NCBI RefSeq assembly: GCF_900100975.1
Contig: NZ_FNFX01000001.1
Span: forward strand, 251,820-315,819
Reading direction: 5' to 3'
Source of the DNA: Methylophilus rhizosphaerae
GTDB lineage: Bacteria; Pseudomonadota; Gammaproteobacteria; Burkholderiales; Methylophilaceae
DNA: 64,000 nt
The notes beneath the pieces were generated by a model. It saw only the letters and a list, made by a program, of their open reading frames with translations. It was not told where the DNA came from and made no database searches. The position numbers and the translations under genes are program-made. Shown in pieces: positions 9,912-64,000 of this stretch; within the stretch, counting starts at the first letter, position 1, and every line of letters begins with the position of its first letter.

Positions 9912-12167
9912 TCAAGTCTTTCGCTGCAACGCCGGGCGCCTGAACAATGTCAGCAAAATCTGGCTGGCAATGGATACGGCCCCGATGATAAAGACCACAT
10001 CACCAAACGTCCTAACCCAGCGCAGCGTTTGCATATGCGGTTGCTGCATGAAAGCCTCGCTGCGCGCATACCACAGACCTTCGCTGACACTGGCCTGGAA
10101 CTGCAGGAAACCTATGGGCAGCAGGCTGGTGAAGATCATCAGCAACAGGCCAATATTCAGCGCCCAGAAGCCGGTTTTCATCAGCCGTTCGTTAAACGCC
10201 ACCTGTGGGTACAGATAACGTAATACCAGCAAGGTAAAACCCAGCGCCAGGAAACCATACACCCCAAACAGTGCCGCATGGGCATGCACGGCCGTGGTAT
10301 TCAGCCCCTGGATGTAATACAGCGAAATCGGCGGATTAATCAGGAAACCGAATACGCCGGCACCCAGCATGTTCCAGAACGCGACTGCAGCAAAACAGCA
10401 TAAGGGCCAGCGCAGGTTATTCAGCCAGGCAGCCCGCGTGTGTATATGCCAATGATGCCACGCTTCATAACTCAGCACCAGCAAAGGAACCACTTCCAGT
10501 GCACTGAAACTGGCACCCACCGCCATAATCGGGGTCGTGGTGCCCGAAAAATACAAGTGGTGGAAAGTGCCGGGTACGCCCCCTATCATGAACAATGAGG
10601 CAGAGGCCAGGCTGGTCACGGTCGCCGTTGTCCGGGAAACCAGTCCCAGCGATAGAAAGACATAGGCCAGAGCAACCGTTGCAAACACTTCAAAAATGCC
10701 TTCCACCCATAAATGCACCACCCACCAGCGCCAGTACTCCATCACGGACAGGTTGCTATGCTCACCATAAAACAGGCCGGAACCATAGAACAGGCCAATG
10801 GCGATCACCGATGCCGTCAGCAAGGCCAGCAGATTTTTATCGCCGGCAGGCACTTTAAGTGCCGGGATCATGCATCGCAGCATCAACCCCAGCCACAGCA
10901 GCAGGCCAATAAACAGGGCAGCCTGCCAGAAACGGCCCAGGTCTATATATTCATAGCCCTGGTGGCCGAACCAGAAATTAAACCGGATCGGCAATAGATT
11001 GGCGATCGCCGTATATTGGCCGAGGAAAGAGCCCACCACTACGATCAGCAAGGCCACAAACAGCAGATTGACACCCAGTTTCTGGTAAGCCGGGTCACGA
11101 CCGCCATTGATAATCGGGGCCAGGAACAACCCTGCCGCCAGGAAGCCGGTTGCGATCCAGAACAGTGCGCTCTGGATATGCCAGGTGCGTGTCAATGCAT
11201 AAGGAAACCACTGGGAAACATCCACCCCGTAAAACTCTTGGCCTTCTACGGTGTAATGCGCGGTAAAACCACCAATCATGACCTGGAACACCAGCAGCGC
11301 GGCGACAATAAACAGGTATTTCCCCAGGGCCCGTTGCGAAGGTGTCAGCACTAAAGTGGTAATCGGGTCCAGCATGCCCGTGACCGGCAAATCTGCTTCT
11401 TCTTTACGCAGCATAGAGGCACCCAGGATCAGGAAACCGACCCCTGCCAGCAACAAGATCACGCTGCCCATGGACCACAAAATATTTTCACTGCTCGGCT
11501 GGTTGCCGATCAACGGCTCGTGCGGCCAGTTATTGGTATAAGTCACCTTGCCATCAGGGCGCTCAGTCGCTACGGCCCAGGCTGTCCAGAAAAAGAAATT
11601 GGCCAGTTTCTGCCGGCTTTCAGCCGCTGGCAAAGTATTGTCCTTCATGGCGAATGCAATGCGTGTCTGCTTGAGCGCCGCCGCATCGGAAAACAAGGCA
11701 TCGTAATAAGCCGCCGCCTGCTGCACCGCTGCCGCACGCCTGGGCGTCAGTTGCAATACACCCTGCGCATCCAGCCGGTTACTGCGGTATTCTTGCTTCA
11801 GCAACTCACGCAGGCCAGCCTGATGCACGGCATCCAGCTCGCTGTAGGGCTTCTGGAAAGCGTCCTTCGCAGCCATGTCCAGCCATGCCACCAGTTCACG
11901 ATGTAACCAGTCTGCAGTCCAGTCAGGCGCCTGGTAAGCACCATGTCCCCAGACAGAGCCTAGCTGCATCCCGCCTACGGATTGCCAATAAGATTGCCCT
12001 TGAAGAATATCTTCCCGGCTAAATGATACCTGGGAATCAGCACTGCTCACCCGCTCCGGCACCGGAGGTGCGAACCGGTAAATCTCGGACCCATAATAGC
12101 CGAGGATAGTGAAAGTGACGATCAGGACAGCGATCAGGATAAACCAAAGCTTTTTATACGCCCCCAT
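9912..12167 (-). CDS. norZ: Quinol-dependent nitric oxide reductase (qNOR)
   Basis: A 751-residue single-subunit NO reductase of the haem-copper oxidase superfamily, reducing 2 NO to N2O with electrons from quinol in the inner membrane. An N-terminal helix and soluble cytochrome-c-like fold without a haem motif (residues 1-220) precede about 12 hydrophobic segments, the arrangement of qNOR rather than cNOR. Recognisable sites: the conserved glutamates in HLWVEGIFEVF (near 490), the paired FeB histidines in GTFHHLYFSG (near 532) and haem ligands in AVHAHAALFGVYG (near 629). The gene stands apart from other denitrification genes, suggesting NO detoxification rather than respiration. A perfect FNR-type site lies about 120 bp upstream. 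Confidence 0.93.
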   Translation of the reverse strand: MGAYKKLWFILIAVLIVTFTILGYYGSEIYRFAPPVPERVSSADSQVSFSREDILQGQSYWQSVGGMQLGSVWGHGAYQAPDWTADWLHRELVAWLDMAAKDAFQKPYSELDAVHQAGLRELLKQEYRSNRLDAQGVLQLTPRRAAAVQQAAAYYDALFSDAAALKQTRIAFAMKDNTLPAAESRQKLANFFFWTAWAVATERPDGKVTYTNNWPHEPLIGNQPSSENILWSMGSVILLLAGVGFLILGASMLRKEEADLPVTGMLDPITTLVLTPSQRALGKYLFIVAALLVFQVMIGGFTAHYTVEGQEFYGVDVSQWFPYALTRTWHIQSALFWIATGFLAAGLFLAPIINGGRDPAYQKLGVNLLFVALLIVVVGSFLGQYTAIANLLPIRFNFWFGHQGYEYIDLGRFWQAALFIGLLLWLGLMLRCMIPALKVPAGDKNLLALLTASVIAIGLFYGSGLFYGEHSNLSVMEYWRWWVVHLWVEGIFEVFATVALAYVFLSLGLVSRTTATVTSLASASLFMIGGVPGTFHHLYFSGTTTPIMAVGASFSALEVVPLLVLSYEAWHHWHIHTRAAWLNNLRWPLCCFAAVAFWNMLGAGVFGFLINPPISLYYIQGLNTTAVHAHAALFGVYGFLALGFTLLVLRYLYPQVAFNERLMKTGFWALNIGLLLMIFTSLLPIGFLQFQASVSEGLWYARSEAFMQQPHMQTLRWVRTFGDVVFIIGAVSIASQILLTLFRRPALQRKT

Positions 12168-55741: not shown

Positions 55742-57456
55742 GGGGACTCCGTAGCCACGCCTGGAGCAGTGGCATTCAGTTGGTTAAGGTAGACAATTCC
55801 CGCATCGCGCGGGCCATGATGCACGACTTCGCCGCGCTTGAGTACCAGCAAGTCATCCGTGACTTTCAGCACACCGGCACGGTGCGAGATCACCACAATG
55901 GTGGTCTGCAATTGTTTGAAGGCCTGCAACAGTTGCATCAGCATCGCTTCGCCAAACTCATCCAGGCTGGCATTGGGCTCATCCAGCACCAGCAAGGCAG
56001 GTTCCTTATAAATGGCACGGGCCAGCCCGAGTAACTGGCGCTGGCCGCCGGAAAGCGGCAAGCCCTGTTCATCCAGCCGAGTATCATAGCCCTGCGGTAA
56101 CCGCAGGATGGCTTCGTGCAGGCCCACCCGCTGGCAGGCCTGGATAATGTGCGGGCTGTCCAGGGCGCCGAATCTGGCCACATTCTCGGCAATCGTTCCC
56201 TCCAGCAGAGAAACCTGTTGCGGCAGGTAGCCCACGCTATTCAATACCGTGCGCGCATTTGCCGCATTAATCGCAAGCTGGTTGATGTAGTAAGCCCCGC
56301 TATGCGGCACCACCCCCACCAGCAGGCGTGCCAAGGTACTTTTACCAGAGCCGGAAGGCCCCATGACACACAATACGCGGCCAGGCGCAATGGTCAGGTT
56401 CAGCGCATGCAGGATGCGCCGTGATTGCAACTCCACGCCGAGATTTTCCAGGATCAAGGTATAAGGCCGCGCCAAGGCCTGGGCTGGTTTCGGGTCAACG
56501 GCGATACGGCCCAGATTGAGCAAGGCCTGCAATTCACTGGCAGCCGCATTCGCCTGCAACCACTGCCGCCAGCTGTGCACAATCACGTCAAACGGTTGCA
56601 GGGCACGGGCAATCAATACATTGGAAGCAATCATGGAACCAAGGCTGAGCTGCCCCTGGATAGTCAGCCAGGCAGCCACGGCCAGCATCAATGATTGCAT
56701 GGTATAGCGCACCCATTTGTTGACGAACTGGCTGCGGTCACTGGCAGCCAGCCAGGTATGCTCGGCCTGCGCCTGCTCGGACAATAATGCCTGCCAGCGC
56801 TGTCGCAGGGTCTGTGACATGCCAAGCACATGGCTGGTCTGCAGGTGCCTGACCTTCTGCTGGATAAAATAATCGGTCATTTGCCTGGCGACCTGTGCCT
56901 GTAGCGCCGGTGCCGCCACCACGCGCTGGTTCCAGACGGCCACACCGCACTGGATCAGGCAAAATACAATCGCGGTGCCGCCCAGCAGTGGATGCAAGGT
57001 AAACAACACTGCGATATACACCACGCTCCACGGGATATCCAGCATGGCAAACAAGCCCTGGCCGGTCATGAACTGCCTGACCGCGTTCAACTGCTGCAAG
57101 GCCTGGGCAGGCGGCTGGCGCTGCACATGATGCGGATCAAACACTGCCGCAAATACCTGCTTGCCATAGGTCAGGTCAAACTGCACGCCGGTCTTGATGG
57201 CATACAGGCTGCGCAGCCAGTCAGCGCCCGCCATCAGCAACAGCAAACCCGCCGCCAGCATCGTCACCGCCACCAGGGTCAGGGTGCTGCGGCTGAGCAT
57301 GACCCGGTCATATAACTGCAACATATACAAGGTTGGCACCAGCATCAGCACATTGGTCAGCAGGCTGAGCCAGGTCATCTGTATAAACTGCGGGCGGAAA
57401 GGCCTGACCAGGGACCACCAGGCCCCGCGACTGAGTGATTGCATGACGGCGTTCAT
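55732..57456 (-). CDS. Type I secretion ABC exporter (PrtD-like), second copy
   Basis: A 574-residue fused membrane/ATPase half-transporter. Membrane domain 1-310; nucleotide-binding domain with Walker A GPSGSGKST, signature LSGGQRQLLGLARA, Walker B LLVLDEPNASLD and His switch VVISHRA all intact. No C39 peptidase. Overlaps the neighbouring ABC gene by 4 bp and the HlyD gene by 10 bp. Two adjacent, distinct half-transporters suggest a heterodimer. Confidence 0.92.
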   Translation of the reverse strand: MNAVMQSLSRGAWWSLVRPFRPQFIQMTWLSLLTNVLMLVPTLYMLQLYDRVMLSRSTLTLVAVTMLAAGLLLLMAGADWLRSLYAIKTGVQFDLTYGKQVFAAVFDPHHVQRQPPAQALQQLNAVRQFMTGQGLFAMLDIPWSVVYIAVLFTLHPLLGGTAIVFCLIQCGVAVWNQRVVAAPALQAQVARQMTDYFIQQKVRHLQTSHVLGMSQTLRQRWQALLSEQAQAEHTWLAASDRSQFVNKWVRYTMQSLMLAVAAWLTIQGQLSLGSMIASNVLIARALQPFDVIVHSWRQWLQANAAASELQALLNLGRIAVDPKPAQALARPYTLILENLGVELQSRRILHALNLTIAPGRVLCVMGPSGSGKSTLARLLVGVVPHSGAYYINQLAINAANARTVLNSVGYLPQQVSLLEGTIAENVARFGALDSPHIIQACQRVGLHEAILRLPQGYDTRLDEQGLPLSGGQRQLLGLARAIYKEPALLVLDEPNASLDEFGEAMLMQLLQAFKQLQTTIVVISHRAGVLKVTDDLLVLKRGEVVHHGPRDAGIVYLNQLNATAPGVATESPCA

Positions 57457-59186
57457 GGCCGTGCCACCTTTCCGGCTTCCTGTTGAAAACTGGCCAGCAC
57501 TTCTGCCGGTTTGCCATAACGGATCATCTGCCCCTGGCGCATGACCAGCATAGCATCCGCAATGGCCAGCACATGCTGCAAGTGGCTGATGATGATAAAC
57601 GTGGTGCCCTGCTGTTTAAGTCGCGCAATCGCCAGTTGCAACGTGCGCTCCGTGCCGGTATCAAGATTGGCATTCGGCTCATCCAGCACCACGATGCGGG
57701 GCTTGCCATAAAAGGCGCGTGCCAGCCCGATTAGTTGCCGCTCGCCACCTGACAGTGGTATGCCACCCTGCCCAATGCGGGTCTCCAGCCCGTCCGGTAA
57801 CTGCTGAATCCAGTCAGCCAGCCCCAGCAGGTCAATCACCTCAGCCAGCGCCTGCGAGTCAGGAGTCTTGAAACGGCAGAGGTTATCAATCAGCTTGCCA
57901 TCAAACAGGTCCACTTCCTGCGCCAGGTAGCCGATATGTGGCCCCAGTTTCACTTTATCCCAGCCATAGACATCCACGCCGTCATAGCGCACGCGGCCAC
58001 TACTTGGTACCAGCAGACCCACCAGCAGCTTTGCCAGGGTGGTTTTGCCTGAGGCGGAAGCCCCTGCCACCACCAGCACATGGCCGGCGGGCAAGGTAAA
58101 CTGCACCTGGCGGATAAATACTTCAGACTGGGTCTTGCCAGCCTGCGGAATAGCATAGGCCAGTTGCTCGACACGCACTTCGCCGGTCGGCGGCGGCAGT
58201 ACCAGGCCATCGGTTTTTTTAACCGCCCCGGCAAACAGGCTGTCAATACGCCTGAATGCCGTCCATGCCTGCTCATAAGTTTTCCAGTGGCCCACGCATT
58301 GCACCAGCGGCGCCAGCACCCGGCCCGCCAGGATAGATGCAACTATCATCATCGCCCCACCCTGCACCAACTCACCGTTAATAAACAGGTAACAACCCAG
58401 CCCCAGGATCAGGCTGGTCTGCATGGTCTGCAACCAGCGCGACACCGCCGCACTCCTGCCCGCCAGCTCGGAGGCTTTCGTCTGTTGCCACAGAAAACCG
58501 TGCTGGCTCTGCAGCCAGCGCTGTTCCACCGGTGCCAGCATCTGCATGGCATGCATCACATCGCCATGACGGCTGATACTGGCAAAATAACGCTGCGACT
58601 CCATCGCCTGTTCATTCGCCAGCTTCATTAATGGGGTCACGCGGGCCTGGTTCTGTACGGTCAATGCCAGCTGGATCAGCAGCCCTACCAGCGTCAGCAC
58701 GCCCAGCGCAGGGTGTATCCAGAACACCGCCCCTAAAAAAATCAGGCAGAAAGGTGCATCCAGCAAACTGAGCAAAGCAGAAGAATGCAAGGTGCTTTTC
58801 AGCGTGGAAAAATCGGAAAATACTTGTGGTGCAGGAAAATCCGGCATGGATAACCTGGCAGCAAACACCCGGTCAAACAGGCGTTCCTGCAATAACTGTT
58901 CAAAACGATGGGCATTGGCCTGCAACAACAGGCGGCGCTGCCATTCCATGGCTTCCATCACCAGGTAAGCGAAAACAGCCAGCAAGGTCAGCATCAATAA
59001 TGTAGACGCATTACGGCTGTTAATGACGCGGTCATACACTTCCAGCATATACCACGAAGGCACCAGGATCAGCAGGTGCGTGACCACGCCAAACATCCAC
59101 ACTTTGTGCCAGGCTGGCCAAAGTTCGGACATGACTTGTTTAATGCTCTCGGATTGCGACAACATGCTCAGCAGACTTTCAAACAT
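57453..59186 (-). CDS. Type I secretion ABC exporter (PrtD-like), first copy
   Basis: A 577-residue half-transporter; ATG 59186 (MFESLLSML) starts the conserved region, the frame opens earlier inside the RTX gene's tail. ATPase motifs intact: Walker A GASASGKTT, signature LSGGERQLIGLARA, Walker B IVVLDEPNANLD, His switch IIISHLQ. The gene begins 43 bp after the RTX protein gene, its probable cargo. Confidence 0.92.
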   Translation of the reverse strand: MFESLLSMLSQSESIKQVMSELWPAWHKVWMFGVVTHLLILVPSWYMLEVYDRVINSRNASTLLMLTLLAVFAYLVMEAMEWQRRLLLQANAHRFEQLLQERLFDRVFAARLSMPDFPAPQVFSDFSTLKSTLHSSALLSLLDAPFCLIFLGAVFWIHPALGVLTLVGLLIQLALTVQNQARVTPLMKLANEQAMESQRYFASISRHGDVMHAMQMLAPVEQRWLQSQHGFLWQQTKASELAGRSAAVSRWLQTMQTSLILGLGCYLFINGELVQGGAMMIVASILAGRVLAPLVQCVGHWKTYEQAWTAFRRIDSLFAGAVKKTDGLVLPPPTGEVRVEQLAYAIPQAGKTQSEVFIRQVQFTLPAGHVLVVAGASASGKTTLAKLLVGLLVPSSGRVRYDGVDVYGWDKVKLGPHIGYLAQEVDLFDGKLIDNLCRFKTPDSQALAEVIDLLGLADWIQQLPDGLETRIGQGGIPLSGGERQLIGLARAFYGKPRIVVLDEPNANLDTGTERTLQLAIARLKQQGTTFIIISHLQHVLAIADAMLVMRQGQMIRYGKPAEVLASFQQEAGKVARP

Positions 59187-59229
59187 AGACTGCGGGCAGG
59201 GGGAAAGTCTGCCCGCAGTATGCGTGTAA

Positions 59230-61452
59230 TTACGCGATGATGAAGTCCGAAGTGGACACTGTGTTGACACCCGTCAGCACGGCAATGTCTACTGCTGCAC
59301 CACTACCGTTACCATCAGCGTCATAGCTCAAGGTATGGGTTGTCGTGTTGTATACCAGGTAGTCATTGGCATCCTGTGCAGTCCCAGTTGAATTCACACG
59401 CAGCATGCTGGCATTGAAGCCTGCCAACTGGCTGTACTGATCCAGATGCAGTTCGATCTTGTCAGTGCCACGGGTAAAGTCAGTGATGGTATCCACACCG
59501 GTCAGGTTGAATGCAGTGTTGGTGTAAGTCTGCACAGTGGTTGAAGAACCTGTCACCACCTGCTCATACACCTTGCCGAATACAAACGTATCCGCACCGC
59601 CGCCGCCAGTCAGCGTATCGTTACCACCATTGCCGATAAACACGTCGGCCTTGCTGGTGCCGATAAAGGTTTGCTGGTCAGCGTTACCTTCAAAGCGCAG
59701 GCCATTGGTAGTCACGCCAGAAGCATCGACCACCACATTGTTGATAGTGCCGCCGTTGTTACCCAGGGTGTTGGAAAGATCAGCCACAGTGCCATTGGCC
59801 TTGAAGTAGTAATGATCGTTGAGCAACTGCAAATCGGTGTTTTCAACGTTCAAACGCCCCACTGTGCCACCCACTTGCACCACTTCCATAGACTGGAAGT
59901 TAGCATCATTCAGCACCACAGTACCATTGGCTTTGGTGTTGGCACCAATACCAGTCGTGATCCGCAAAGTATCCACGCCATCACCACCCACGATCACATC
60001 GTGTTTAGCACCAGTCGCAATCCACTCTTTGTTACCGTCATCAACCTTGGAAGTCGTGCCTTGCACACCACTACCAAAACCGCCGATCACAAAAATGTCA
60101 TCGCCTTCACCACCATCCAGGTAGTCAGCGCCGCCATGACCGATCAACAGGTCATTGCCGCCGTTACCGTAAACAGTGTCGTCACCCAAACGCATGGTGA
60201 CATACTCAACACCATCGCCACCGTAAACGATTTCGTGGGCATCACTGCCTTCGTTAGCGCCGTCAATGCGCGTGTAACTACCAGCCTCGCCTTCAGATGC
60301 ATCGTAGATTACGTCGACGTTGTGGTAAAGATTAGCTACGGAATAATCATCTACCTCAAATACGGCAGCTTCATAAGTCACTGGTGTTGCACCAACGATG
60401 GTTGCTGCTGGAGTGAAAGTAGCGTCTTCAAACTCTAGTTCGACAGTGACAGTTTCAACTGGGCCACCGGCAACACCATAGATATGTGTACCAGGGTTAA
60501 ACTCACCGGTACTTAATGACTCACCATTTTCCTCCAGTTGTTCAGCTTCTAGCGTGATATGGACGCCACTCGCCAACTCAATGCGCTCAATGCCAGAGAA
60601 AACAATATCCTCAAACTCACCAGACTTTGTGAATTCAAGGGTATCCACCGCATTGTAACCAGCAATCGTTGTGGCAAAGGTACTTATGGCTGATGAGCCA
60701 GGACGAGTAACGATATTCAAGCGAACATCTGTTTCTGCCTCTAATGACATATCGTCATCGTCAATTGCGACGATCTCACCAGTTGTAGTATCAATTGCAA
60801 CCAAACCGGCATCTTCATCAGTTTCATCGGCTTCAGACAGTTCAATATAGCGTGCTTCATTGCCTGAATTATCAAGACCCGATACACCACCTTCAATAAT
60901 GATATGCCCAGCATCTTCCTCATTCCCAATCCGGAAAGTATCATTACCGTCTCCTCCTATAGCAACATCATATGATGTCATCAGAAAAAGATTACCTTGG
61001 ACTGTTTCATCTCCTGAGGAACTATCGTCACCCTGAAGGTAGTCATTACCCTCACCACCACTTAAAACGTCATCTCCATCACCACCATAAATGACATCAT
61101 TACCGCTTCCGCCATACAGGGTATCATCTCCAGCACCACCAAAAATATTGTCAATGCCATCGCCACCATCAATATAATCTTCGCCATCACCAGTTTCGAT
61201 AGTGTCATCGCCAGCGCCGCCTAAAATTATGTTGTTGCCATCACCACCAAAGATGATGTCATCACCATCACCACCAAAGATAATGTCATCACCATCACCA
61301 CCGTCAATGAAATCACTACCTGCCAACCCTAAAATGATGTCATTCCCTCCGTCACCGTAGATAGAGTTATCTAAACTATTGCCCACGATCAAATCAGGGT
61401 TAGATGTGCCTGTATAATCTGTTTCTGTACCATTAAAAATTTTAATTGCCAT
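59230..61452 (-). CDS. RTX-type calcium-binding secreted protein, probable type I substrate
   Basis: A 740-residue acidic protein without signal peptide. Three RTX blocks of GGxGxDxxx nonapeptides: a long one at the N-terminus (about 30-150, e.g. GGDGDDIIFGGDGDD), one near 455-480 (GNGGNDLLIGHGGAD) and one near 620-640 (GNGGNDTLTGGGGADTF). The C-terminus (TSDFIIA) fits an uncleaved type I secretion signal. ATG 61452 has GAGGAG at seven bases (ATG 61455 also possible). Probably an S-layer-like or surface protein. The N-terminal placement of the largest RTX block is unusual. Next gene downstream is its exporter. Confidence 0.9.
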   Translation of the reverse strand: MAIKIFNGTETDYTGTSNPDLIVGNSLDNSIYGDGGNDIILGLAGSDFIDGGDGDDIIFGGDGDDIIFGGDGNNIILGGAGDDTIETGDGEDYIDGGDGIDNIFGGAGDDTLYGGSGNDVIYGGDGDDVLSGGEGNDYLQGDDSSSGDETVQGNLFLMTSYDVAIGGDGNDTFRIGNEEDAGHIIIEGGVSGLDNSGNEARYIELSEADETDEDAGLVAIDTTTGEIVAIDDDDMSLEAETDVRLNIVTRPGSSAISTFATTIAGYNAVDTLEFTKSGEFEDIVFSGIERIELASGVHITLEAEQLEENGESLSTGEFNPGTHIYGVAGGPVETVTVELEFEDATFTPAATIVGATPVTYEAAVFEVDDYSVANLYHNVDVIYDASEGEAGSYTRIDGANEGSDAHEIVYGGDGVEYVTMRLGDDTVYGNGGNDLLIGHGGADYLDGGEGDDIFVIGGFGSGVQGTTSKVDDGNKEWIATGAKHDVIVGGDGVDTLRITTGIGANTKANGTVVLNDANFQSMEVVQVGGTVGRLNVENTDLQLLNDHYYFKANGTVADLSNTLGNNGGTINNVVVDASGVTTNGLRFEGNADQQTFIGTSKADVFIGNGGNDTLTGGGGADTFVFGKVYEQVVTGSSTTVQTYTNTAFNLTGVDTITDFTRGTDKIELHLDQYSQLAGFNASMLRVNSTGTAQDANDYLVYNTTTHTLSYDADGNGSGAAVDIAVLTGVNTVSTSDFIIA
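61238..61302 (-). repeat. Near-identical 27-bp tandem repeats in the RTX gene
   Basis: Two 27-bp units (61238-61264 and 61265-61291) differ by one base and are followed by a partial third. They encode GGDGDDIIF nonapeptides. DNA-level identity of neighbouring repeats suggests recent expansion by slippage. Confidence 0.7.
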
Positions 61453-61529: not shown

Positions 61530-62456
61530 TTAAGGTACAGTAGCCCCAGGAGGTGCATAGCCGAGATCAAGAGTAATTTCTTGCATAGTGGTAGCTTCCT
61601 GTCCGGTCTGACGTAAACGAATAGCACCAGCCTTTTCCCAGCCAGAAATAGCTGAATCATCGCACGCAGCCTCTACATAGGTCATTGCAGAGTTTACATT
61701 CGTGCCGCCATCATCATCCAGGTAACCAGAATCCAAAGTAAAATCTATCCAGTTGCTATTGACAACAGCATCCTGTGTTGTTGAAGAAGTTGAAGCCACA
61801 GTTGTAGCATTGATTCCAGTAGCCTCCCCACTCAAATTACTTGTCACGCTATTTTTGGTCGGCAAATCAAGATAATTGGTACCAAGCAAAGCTTTATTTG
61901 TAGCTGTATCATATTTGTAAGCACGGTGCTGTACAGAGGTAAATGTTCTACCAATACGATATACTGGGGAGGCATTTGTCGCTTGAATGTAATAACCTGC
62001 ATTTACAGATAAAGAACCAAACCCTGCACGTGCAATGTCATTTACCTCGAAGTACTGTGTACCTGCTGTATCAGGATCCCAATCCGCATCATATGCTGTA
62101 AAGCGTGCACCAAAGATGCAAGAGGTTTTAGCTGCATTTCTCCATACCCGATCTAAAACATAACCGACAGTTACGCCGTTGATGGTCGCACTGCGTGTTT
62201 TGGACGCAGCTAATGTATAACCAGCCCCAGTCGGATCTGCAGACTCGCTTGTTGGAAATACGGCACAAGTATTGTTAGCAGTAGTAGTTGGTAAAGTTGG
62301 GATGCTAGATCCAAAATTCCCAGTGGTATTGCACGAGGTATAAGCCGAGCTGGTGAATCCAGTAGTCGGAATCGCCACTAATCCAGTAGCCATACTCTGC
62401 ATAGAAATAAAACTCAAAGCACCTAACACTGCAAGTTTAATCGTTACACTTTTCAT
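61530..62456 (-). CDS. Secreted protein of unknown function, 308 residues
   Basis: Signal peptide (LAVLGALSFISMQS, cut after MA) followed by TGLVAIPTTGFTSSAYTSC. The mature protein is Ser/Thr/Ala-rich with four or more Cys (including CNTTGN, NNTCAV, TSCIFG, EAACDD) and no domain I recognise. Start has AAAGGAG before the ATG. It lies upstream of the RTX/type I genes on the same strand. Its first 41 residues align without gaps with the 44-residue ORF at 62575-62709, and both share a conserved leader element. Confidence 0.75.
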   Translation of the reverse strand: MKSVTIKLAVLGALSFISMQSMATGLVAIPTTGFTSSAYTSCNTTGNFGSSIPTLPTTTANNTCAVFPTSESADPTGAGYTLAASKTRSATINGVTVGYVLDRVWRNAAKTSCIFGARFTAYDADWDPDTAGTQYFEVNDIARAGFGSLSVNAGYYIQATNASPVYRIGRTFTSVQHRAYKYDTATNKALLGTNYLDLPTKNSVTSNLSGEATGINATTVASTSSTTQDAVVNSNWIDFTLDSGYLDDDGGTNVNSAMTYVEAACDDSAISGWEKAGAIRLRQTGQEATTMQEITLDLGYAPPGATVP

Positions 62457-62490
62457 AATTACTCCTTTGAGACATTTTGCAAAGCACTGA

Positions 62491-62553
62491 GGTAGCCTGC
62501 ATCACCCATTCCCACACCCTTCTAGCCCCTCGTCAGTTCTAAGCAAGGTGTGG
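62491..62553 (-). ncRNA. Candidate structured leader RNA, copy A
   Basis: On the minus strand a 7-bp stem CCACACC/GGTGTGG encloses a 28-base loop with GCTTAGAACTGACGAGGG, followed by GTGATGCAGGC. It ends 34 bases before the start of the 308-residue gene. Copy B has the same loop but a different, compensated stem. I could not match it to a known riboswitch class. Confidence 0.6.
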
Positions 62554-62574
62554 CAAATTTCTAGTACAAATACT

Positions 62575-62709
62575 TTAAAAAAACATTAAGGCGTAAGCCG
62601 ACTCACTGAAACCAGCAACTGGTATCACGACCAGCTCTGTTGCAAAAGCAAATGTTGTATTGAACGCACATAGTCCCAAAACTGCCATCGCCAAAATCAG
62701 TTCTTTCAT
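62575..62709 (-). CDS. 44-residue exported ORF, paralogous to N-terminus of the 308-residue protein
   Basis: ATG 62709 with GGGAG upstream encodes a signal-peptide-like start (MKELILAMAVLGLCAF) and then ATELVVIPVAGFSESAYALMFF. Against the neighbouring protein it shares MK, AVLG, AT-LV-IP--GF--SAY in identical positions over 41 residues, then stops at TAA where the paralogue continues for 267 residues. Either a truncated duplicate (pseudogene) or a genuine short peptide. Its leader carries element B. Confidence 0.6.
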   Translation of the reverse strand: MKELILAMAVLGLCAFNTTFAFATELVVIPVAGFSESAYALMFF

Positions 62710-62750
62710 CTTCTACTCCCTGGAAAAAGGTACAATAAGCAAGCATTTGT

Positions 62751-62812
62751 GGCTGCCCGCATCACGGATTTCCGTCATTTCTGGTCCCTCGTAAGTTCTA
62801 AGCAAATCACGG
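62751..62812 (-). ncRNA. Candidate structured leader RNA, copy B
   Basis: Stem CCGTGAT/ATGACGG (six pairs, one mismatch) encloses a 27-base loop with GCTTAGAACTTACGAGGG, then GTGATGCGGGC. It ends 41 bases before the 44-residue ORF. The ATGACGG arm can alternatively pair with a second CCGTGAT just downstream, giving two exclusive folds. Confidence 0.6.
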
Positions 62813-62909
62813 GAATTTAATCAAGGTACGCCACAAATGCCCTTTTTCATGCTCCCCAGAAGTTAACTAAACTCACGCAAGTTTTCACTAGGAGTTTTTC
62901 CCGCCTGTA

Positions 62910-64000
62910 TTAATCCGGCTGGAAATGCCAATTCAAGCTAAACCAGACTCCCCTTGGTGCCCCTGGCGAAATAAAATTCGTGCTACGCCAGTCTGCTGAA
63001 TTATGGTTATAACCATCAGGCCCGATATTGCCTAACACGCTTGGTGAAAAAGGATTTCTCCCCAGACGTCCAGCCGTAAAGTACTCTTTATCAAATAAGT
63101 TGGTGACAAGTACAGTAGCCGTCCACTCTTTATTGAAGCGATAACTGCTTTGCAAGTTAAAAGTCGCATAACCAGGCGCCTTGCCTGGGTTAGTGGTAGG
63201 CGCTAATGTGCGGGTATACACCTCGGTCATGGTTGTACCATTTCCGCTACCATCATCTACCTGTCGAAAGGCGGTGAAAGTTCGTGAAACACCCACCTGA
63301 TGCTCGTTATTCTCGTTGCCGCGCATAAAACTATCAGAATGCGCGACCATAGTCAGACCCACATTCCAGTTGTCAGTCAAGTCATAGCTCAGGCTAGCAT
63401 TCAGGTTGTGTAGTGAAACACCAGGCATACGATCACCAGGCTTAACATTAATGACACCCTCGCCCAATGTATTCACAGTTCTAGAGCTACTGTTATCTTC
63501 ACTGAACATCAGAAAATCATCCTGAAAGGTAGCATCGGTCAAACCGTAATTCAGCCCCCAATGCAACCGATCAATATTGCCTTTAAAACCTGCTTCAAGC
63601 CCACGACGACGAGTTTTACCCACTGTGTCAAAGAATCCTCGCCCGTTGCTAATGGCCACAAAATAGATGTCGTCCTTGAGATCGGTTTGATACGCGTTGA
63701 TATTCCATTGCGTGTTTTCACCCCATGTACCTCTCATCCCAACTTCATAACTGGTTGCTTTAATTTGCGGAAGATATGGGTCACCTGACAGGGTGGTTGG
63801 TAAGGTGCACTGGCGATTTTCGGCAATACTTTTGGGCACTTCATAAACATTACCATTGCCATCGGATTGAAAAACACCTGAAGGTCTATGATCCAAAGCA
63901 CAACCAAGCTCAATCACACTGGGAACACGCGTACCTTGTGCCACATTAGCGTAAATATTTAAATCAGGCCTGGCTTGCCAACTTGCCCCCAACTGCGGAT
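62910..64000 (-). CDS. TonB-dependent receptor, partial (copy 3), cut by right edge
   Basis: The C-terminal 363 codons of a receptor whose 5' part lies beyond the window; the frame is open to base 64000. It carries the same barrel strands as copies 1 and 2 (LNIYANVAQGTRVPSVIELGC, LPTTLSGDPYLPQIKAT, FDKEYFTAGRLGRNPFSP) and ends WFSLNWHFQPD. Closest to copy 1. Whether it too has an ECF/FecR pair cannot be seen. Confidence 0.93.
   Translation of the reverse strand, partial: PQLGASWQARPDLNIYANVAQGTRVPSVIELGCALDHRPSGVFQSDGNGNVYEVPKSIAENRQCTLPTTLSGDPYLPQIKATSYEVGMRGTWGENTQWNINAYQTDLKDDIYFVAISNGRGFFDTVGKTRRRGLEAGFKGNIDRLHWGLNYGLTDATFQDDFLMFSEDNSSSRTVNTLGEGVINVKPGDRMPGVSLHNLNASLSYDLTDNWNVGLTMVAHSDSFMRGNENNEHQVGVSRTFTAFRQVDDGSGNGTTMTEVYTRTLAPTTNPGKAPGYATFNLQSSYRFNKEWTATVLVTNLFDKEYFTAGRLGRNPFSPSVLGNIGPDGYNHNSADWRSTNFISPGAPRGVWFSLNWHFQPD

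Follow-up and report, generated by a model that had tools for sequence, protein, structure and literature searches.

A conserved intercistronic RNA element with two mutually exclusive helices in a receptor and secreted-protein operon of Methylophilaceae

The window analysed here, a stretch of 64,000 nucleotides of Methylophilus rhizosphaerae (contig NZ_FNFX01000001.1), carries on its minus strand the end of a TonB-dependent receptor gene, the remnant of a secreted-protein gene, the intact secreted-protein gene S308, an RTX repeat protein gene and the gene of a type I secretion ABC transporter. Two copies of a structured element, A and B, are located between the receptor and S308 (Table 1). In the receptor (L160:4733-8290) the domains PF00593 and PF07715 score above cut-off and STN below it (24.7 of 28.4 bits); the best haem-type NCBIfam match, TIGR01785, reaches 65.5 bits against a cut-off of 316.85, which does not place the receptor in the haem type. 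Five members of the S308 family were scanned against Pfam and NCBIfam and none matched, and an AlphaFold2 model from three sequences was unusable, with a mean pLDDT of 37.7. The S308 protein of the window has 40 relatives. Upstream of the receptor, the same genome encodes an addiction-module antidote-like protein (PF21716) and a HipA_C protein (L160:9258-9860, 10916-11935).

Table 1. Coordinates of the RNA element, its parts and the neighbouring genes within the window
Feature	Position	Strand	Basis
3' part of TonB-dependent receptor gene, 1186 aa, running past the window	62910..64000	-	
Copy B, complete RNA element	62728..62848	-	R2 match 87.6 bits, E 1.3e-16
Copy B, P1 5' arm GGCATTTGTGGC	62830..62841	-	Sequence; predicted P1 probability 0.99 in ensemble
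Copy B, central stem P2, apical P3 and conserved loop TTAGAACTTACGAGGGACCAG	62768..62818	-	
Copy B, alternative hairpin H3, GCGGGCA-GCCACAAA-TGCTTGC, excluding P1	62739..62760	-	
Copy B, P1 3' arm GCCACAAATGC, common to H3	62743..62753	-	Near-invariant, 37 copies
Copy B, tail ATTGTA (family motif ATTNTA)	62731..62736	-	Counts in 51 copies
44-aa ORF, 5' remnant of second S308 gene	62575..62709	-	~810 bases missing compared with L122
Copy A, RNA element, outer arms diverged	62468..62592	-	R2 match 36.2 bits, E 2.2e-4
Copy A, central stem CCACACC/GGTGTGG and loop	62512..62553	-	Sequence
S308, 308-aa secreted protein, downstream of copy A	61530..62456	-	Aligned with 28 relatives
RTX repeat protein, ~740 aa, same operon	59230..61452	-	PF00353; synteny
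Type I secretion ABC transporter	57453..59270	-	TIGR01842 519.4 bits, cut-off 510.15

Read from 5' to 3', the element is composed of the following segments: (a) an arm, GGCATTTG(T/C)G; (b) the loose 3' side of a possible hairpin, H1; (c) a central hairpin in which P2 (AATTCAACC..GCAATC / GATTG..GGTGAATT) continues into P3 (TTAG/CTAA) around a conserved apical loop, e.g. AACTTACAAGGCG; (d) TTGGTGNTGC; (e) the almost invariant GCRGGCAGCCACAAATGCCYGC; (f) the tail ATTNTA; and (g) the Shine-Dalgarno sequence with the start codon. Segment (e) can pair either with arm (a), forming the closing helix P1 (GGCATTTGTGG/CCACAAATGCC), or with itself, forming the alternative 3' hairpin H3 (GCRGGCA-GCCACAAA-TGCCYGC). 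One strand is common to both helices, and because the same bases are used, P1 and H3 are mutually exclusive. The H1 loop TTTGTG is complementary to the H3 loop CACAAA, and if H1 and H3 both form, these loops could kiss. The label P1/K denotes pairs belonging either to such a kissing contact or to an extended P1, two options that look the same in the sequence.

An earlier note on this DNA had described one element standing before both the 308-residue gene and the 44-residue ORF. Both copies are indeed present, and the core common to them, TGCTTAGAACTNACGAGGG, has exactly two occurrences in the window, where shuffles lead one to expect 0.01. A pattern search of the own genome with 3 mismatches returned the two copies and one 3-mismatch place, the reversed-pattern control returning 4 places. 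The length of about 62 nt given earlier was too short: by covariance model R2 each copy measures about 121-125 nt; the earlier description had taken in the central hairpin and some of the 3' side, and P1 and H3 had been missed. Copy B is a seed sequence of both models and is placed by model R1 at 62732-62844 (102.8 bits); copy A, a seed of R1 and not of R2, is placed by R1 at 62472-62577 (77.5 bits), its R2 match corresponding to G000:C10:314287-314411 in the own genome. The compensated 7-bp stem reported for the two copies is complete in copy A (7/7); in copy B, CCGTGAT/ATGACGG pairs by eye at 6/7 positions with a G-G mismatch, and longer arms, AAATTCCCGTGATTT/AAATGACGGAAAT, bring more bases into pairing than the 7-bp stem. 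The alternative pairing suggested for copy B (ACGG/CCGT) does appear in its minimum-energy fold and, by eye, is not kept in the related locus L122. The switch-like option drawn from it has a counterpart in the family, where exclusive alternatives are conserved, in the form of P1 and H3 rather than of the copy B pairing.

The 44-residue ORF is the product of a deletion. Alignment with L122 (L122:3948-4759) gave flanks that are 84% and 86% identical on either side of the block absent from the window; the deletion spans codon 41 of the first S308 gene to the start of copy A, with its junction near 62587. As a result of this internal deletion copy B now precedes a remnant, and its function in this genome may be on the way to being lost.

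The common gene order at the loci carrying the element is receptor - element - S308 (- S308) - RTX - ABC exporter; several loci lack the RTX and exporter genes, at least within the sequence fetched. As a rule the element occupies the space that separates an S308 gene from the TonB-dependent receptor gene, or other S308 gene, before it. S308-type genes follow 45 of the 54 elements recognised in the family (41 complete by automatic call, together with L121, L124:2960, L141 at a contig end and the remnant of the window), RTX genes follow four (L129, L136, L140 and L144), and five have no such ORF (L124:10805, L147, L148 twice and L152). The element was found in a constant position upstream of one gene family, on the same strand. 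Its distance from the upstream stop codon is -1 to 177 nt, with a median of 33, for 49 of the 54 elements; the count leaves out L149 and both L148 elements, where the closest ORF is over 700 nt distant, L151, which lacks any ORF upstream, and copy A, which is preceded by the remnant. For three of the 49 (L124:2960, L132:6405 and L133) the large upstream ORF was unmatched to a receptor by BLAST. From this position after an upstream stop codon the element is intercistronic; the earlier term leader element says more than this position shows if a 5' leader is meant. No sigma-70-like promoter was found in the window between 62400 and 63050, a weak negative that leaves room for a promoter, since shuffled sequences give just 1.0 there.

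Two further observations concern individual loci. In L041 a FecR-type gene (PF04773; L041:2081-3046) directly precedes the TonB receptor gene, which suggests sigma/anti-sigma signalling at the operon. In L148 (L148:4936-5304, genome G186) two elements lie about 250 bases apart with no operon gene matched nearby, and may be relics or free-standing copies.

The spread of the element was determined with patterns and covariance models. At 2 mismatches the pattern gave 17 places in 15 of the 187 family genomes and its reversed control about 30; as the control was no lower than the pattern, single pattern matches are no evidence. Ten of the 17 places proved to be elements, the conserved region extending past its first limits, and two 2-mismatch places, in L005 and L006, resemble the antisense of a tRNA-Ser gene, a lead that was dropped. 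Pattern scans of wider genome contigs and of viral contigs yielded 50 and 18 stretches, respectively; among seven genome stretches inspected, L041 and L046 hold the element. The first covariance model, R1, was built from nine copies. By covariance model the element is present in 39 of the 187 Methylophilaceae genomes (E < 1e-3), eight further genomes with weak matches only (E 0.07 to 0.76) being set aside as chance. With flanks fetched, 64 matches were obtained: 54 elements, among them the nine seeds of the first model; one weak match in L161 (E 0.0087), dropped as spurious; and nine opposite-strand matches, rejected because they overlap elements and are echoes of the near-palindromic P1 helix. 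The covariance search proposed in the earlier note thereby produced further homologues with covariation in Methylophilaceae. The element and the operon occur in 10 of the 24 genera searched. S308 matches better than E 1e-50 occur in exactly the 39 genomes that carry the element; a fortieth, G075, has a weak S308 match and no element.

Outside the family, R2 matched 7 of 399 genomes of an order sample, all of them Methylophilaceae, under stricter filters that may lose weak matches, and 1 of 274 genomes of an overlapping class sample under stricter filters, namely the genome of the window. Distant S308 relatives are encoded in seven sampled genomes from other families of the order; several of them follow, by eye, an ORF with a receptor-like end, and three of the four scanned carry a PEP-CTERM motif. 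Ten loci with such relatives gave no R2 match with filters off. The element appears to have arisen within Methylophilaceae, at a receptor/S308 gene pair that is older. Rfam 15 produced no match in the window at gathering score, none at E<=5 in 62000-63200 and none at E<=0.5 in ten of the related loci, in agreement with the earlier statement that riboswitch consensuses such as those of c-di-GMP-I, TPP, guanidine, fluoride and ZTP do not fit. Among the literature matches listed, no paper deals with this RNA or operon, and the excerpt of PMC7589939 has no bearing on this operon.

Base pairing was evaluated in two alignments: A4, aligned by sequence only and containing 37 of the 54 elements after removal of the longest, the most diverged and nearly identical sequences, and A5, fitted to the model and containing 52 rows, one of which is an opposite-strand echo, with three elements, including copy A, excluded by the cut-off. 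In A4, 83.7% of the stem cells pair, against 32-42% with partners slid by 1-3 columns, and changes on both sides were found at 22/36 pairs against a shuffled mean of 13.2, 0/500 shuffles reaching the observed value. In A5, 86.9% of cells pair and 24/30 pairs are changed on both sides, including 13/13 of the P2 pairs. H3 is paired in 98.8% of its A4 cells, with two pairs changed on both sides there and three in A5. Pairing kept despite sequence change, the mark of a structured cis-regulatory RNA, was found in both alignments. GU pairs outnumber AC combinations 44 to 12 in P2 and 14 to 2 in H3, which fits an RNA of this strand; P1/K behaves in the opposite way (0 to 21), owing to two positions at which C-A or A-C combinations are frequent. 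The presence of 54 copies in 39 genomes, the covariation above shuffled and slid controls and the GU excess all uphold the functional RNA claimed earlier.

A tree-aware null, built by the author for this analysis, was applied to A5 minus the echo. Two pairs pass (E 0.007 and 0.017), and six of the ten best-ranked pairs lie in proposed helices (five tagged and the P1/kissing pair). For a sequence-only alignment of 41 copies no pair passes the same null (best E 0.22), and four of its top five pairs belong to the structure by nesting. One P1/kissing pair is G-C in 32/41 and A-T in 7/41 copies; in A4, P1/K has no standard pair at one position in 12/37 copies and at the next in 8/37. In H1, 57.3% of the A4 cells pair, and its outer bases give 11.73 with their own partner against 10.81 with a swapped one (0/300). 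Judged from the alignments, P2 and P3 are firmly supported and P1/K and H3 reasonably supported; the support for H1 is weak.

The competition between the two folds was followed by energy prediction. Forced folding gives P1 a lower energy than H3 in 34/51 copies, by a mean of 2.8 kcal/mol, and the probability of H3 exceeds 0.5 in 13/51. Copy B folded alone is predicted to adopt P1 (0.99) with H3 at 0.00 and P2 at 0.03, and given the last value its central stem is taken from the family alignment. The tail following H3 was counted in 51 copies as A 51, T 50, T 49, N, T 48 and A 49; with A3, T4, T5, T7 and A8 near-invariant, it amounts to more than a U-tract and constitutes a motif. At least five T in 8 positions were found in 27/51 tails, against 2.6% expected from downstream composition, TTTT in 9/53 and TTTTT in 0/53. 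For an intrinsic-terminator attenuator these observations point both ways: P1 and H3 compete in the predicted folds and about half of the tails are T-rich, yet the tail is not a plain U-run. H3 of copy B was flagged as terminator-like, one such hit comparing with 0.8 by chance in shuffles.

Several other candidates were examined and rejected. A pseudoknot between the apical loop (TTACAA) and the tail (TTGTAA) was dropped, as all four bases (G, C, T, A) occur at the tail position while the loop is constant; an upstream reading frame, GTG-AAT-TGG, loses its start in some copies; and a sigma-54 spacing is, by eye, one base off. Stops occur in all three sense frames in 39/54 elements and not in 15.

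The RNA probably helps to set the amount of secreted proteins made. As to the manner, we tentatively prefer, at slightly less than even confidence, a cis-acting RNA, intercistronic in position, that alternates between two folds and in this way sets the expression of the secreted product. This comes first because both exclusive helices are kept, one of them near-invariant and then followed by a fixed motif. In its favour also count the homologues and their covariation, the predicted competition of the folds, the terminator-like flag on H3 of copy B and the T-rich tails, the distribution shared with S308, the spacing to the start codon and the GU excess in P2 and H3. The element would be carried in the mRNA of the receptor, secreted-protein, RTX and type I secretion operon; it follows the upstream stop codon (receptor or S308) and ends ahead of the site where ribosomes bind for the secreted-protein gene that comes next. 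By sequence comparison the central P2 and P3 hairpin is flanked by two arms, which can be joined as P1 in the closed fold; in the open fold the 3' arm can form H3, optionally together with a weak H1 whose loop is complementary to that of H3. Exchanging between these folds, the RNA would lower (attenuate) S308 and the later genes when H3 stands before the U-rich tail ATTNTA and would permit their expression when P1 is formed, so that the operon could set the secreted product relative to the receptor. The conserved apical loop would be the likeliest binding site for a putative signal. Against the P1/H3 switch stand the near-invariant A positions of the tail, needless for a generic terminator, the scarcity of TTTT and the near-chance terminator flag, the non-standard pairs and AC excess of P1/K, the few pairs that pass the tree-aware null and the low pairing of H1, together with the diverged outer arms of copy A, the strong preference for P1 and lack of P2 predicted for copy B alone, and the scattered Shine-Dalgarno access. 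A more specific version, in which the element is a riboswitch-like class, found so far only in Methylophilaceae, that senses a nutrient imported by the receptor (e.g. a metal) and gates S308, RTX and exporter through the P1/H3 exchange, is unlikely in our estimation, if worth keeping in mind.

Close behind the switch comes a papBA-like element, for which no switching is needed and which we consider possible, if less probable. By this analogy an endonuclease would cut after the receptor gene and the fold would protect the new 5' end, so that the S308 and RTX mRNA would outlive the receptor mRNA. The short distance of the element from the upstream stop codon, the short ribosome-binding leader after it and the copy preceding RTX in four genomes all agree with such processing, and receptor and secreted product may be needed in unequal amounts; there is precedent in papBA and in other E. 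coli operons in the excerpt of PMC5927463. A protective stem would need neither the near-invariant H3 strand nor two exclusive helices, and the gap of -1 to 2 nt in L132:5243, L136:6688 and L142 offers little single-stranded room for a cut.

Control of translation, in which the element would tune the access of ribosomes to S308 (by standby, protein or small-RNA binding) at an unchanged amount of RNA, is improbable. The conserved AU-rich tail does lie just before the Shine-Dalgarno sequence, and tight spacing, with a median of 26.5 nt in the 36 of 42 copies measurable, separates the region where H3 ends from the start codon of S308; four RTX copies depart from this spacing, at 19-113 nt from the start codon. 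The explanation is made less likely by the scattered Shine-Dalgarno access predicted in 42 copies, where the unpaired probability ranges over 0.03-0.96 with a mean of 0.48 and shows no uniform sequestration (an upstream in-frame start being taken in L132:5243 and L135).

A role at the level of DNA, as an operator, promoter or recombination site, is very improbable. The ATTNTA tail resembles the T-A-T-T-N-T pattern of a -10 box, its positions matching A2 and T6 of the hexamer; the compensating changes and the excess of GU over AC in P2 and H3 fit a transcribed RNA, and the blank promoter search described above, weak as it is, points the same way. That the copies are alike merely by duplication of gene and leader, as the paralogy of the two downstream genes might suggest, deserves practically no credence in view of 54 copies with maintained pairing in 39 genomes of 10 genera and of the element before an unrelated RTX gene in four genomes.

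Through the element, an uncharacterised operon for uptake and secretion in one methylotroph family becomes open to experiments at the RNA level; the operon also encodes S308, a secreted family absent from Pfam and NCBIfam. Should the switch prove real, identifying its signal would tell what the receptor and the proteins secreted alongside it deal with; if the element acts on stability, it would be a well-conserved case of sequence-specific operon balancing.

Among known gene arrangements, the Has haemophore operon has the order hasI-hasS-hasR-hasA-hasD. The present operon resembles it in that a TonB receptor gene, whose STN domain scores weakly, precedes genes for secreted proteins and for a type I secretion ABC transporter, and in the FecR-type gene before the receptor in L041. 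No HasA-like match was obtained in Pfam for S308 or RTX, the latter matching PF00353 only, and no paper on a hasR-hasA stem-loop was found. Attenuator-type cis-regulatory RNAs and riboswitches are among the known systems closest to the element. Like them, the element is a structured RNA just upstream of a gene, with two exclusive helices on a common strand and a terminator-like 3' hairpin; unlike them, it lies between the genes of an operon and has a weak U-tract with conserved A, and it gave no Rfam 15 match. In papBA, as presented in the excerpt of PMC5927463, an intercistronic structure protects the 5' end left by an endonuclease cut, and the same excerpt reports, for 10 of 15 E. coli operons, RNase E cleavage directly ahead of the gene that is stabilised. 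Compared with papBA as described there, the present element is long, conserved in sequence and provided with a predicted alternative pairing; the two are alike in their intercistronic site and in a downstream secreted or surface product that may be needed in excess.
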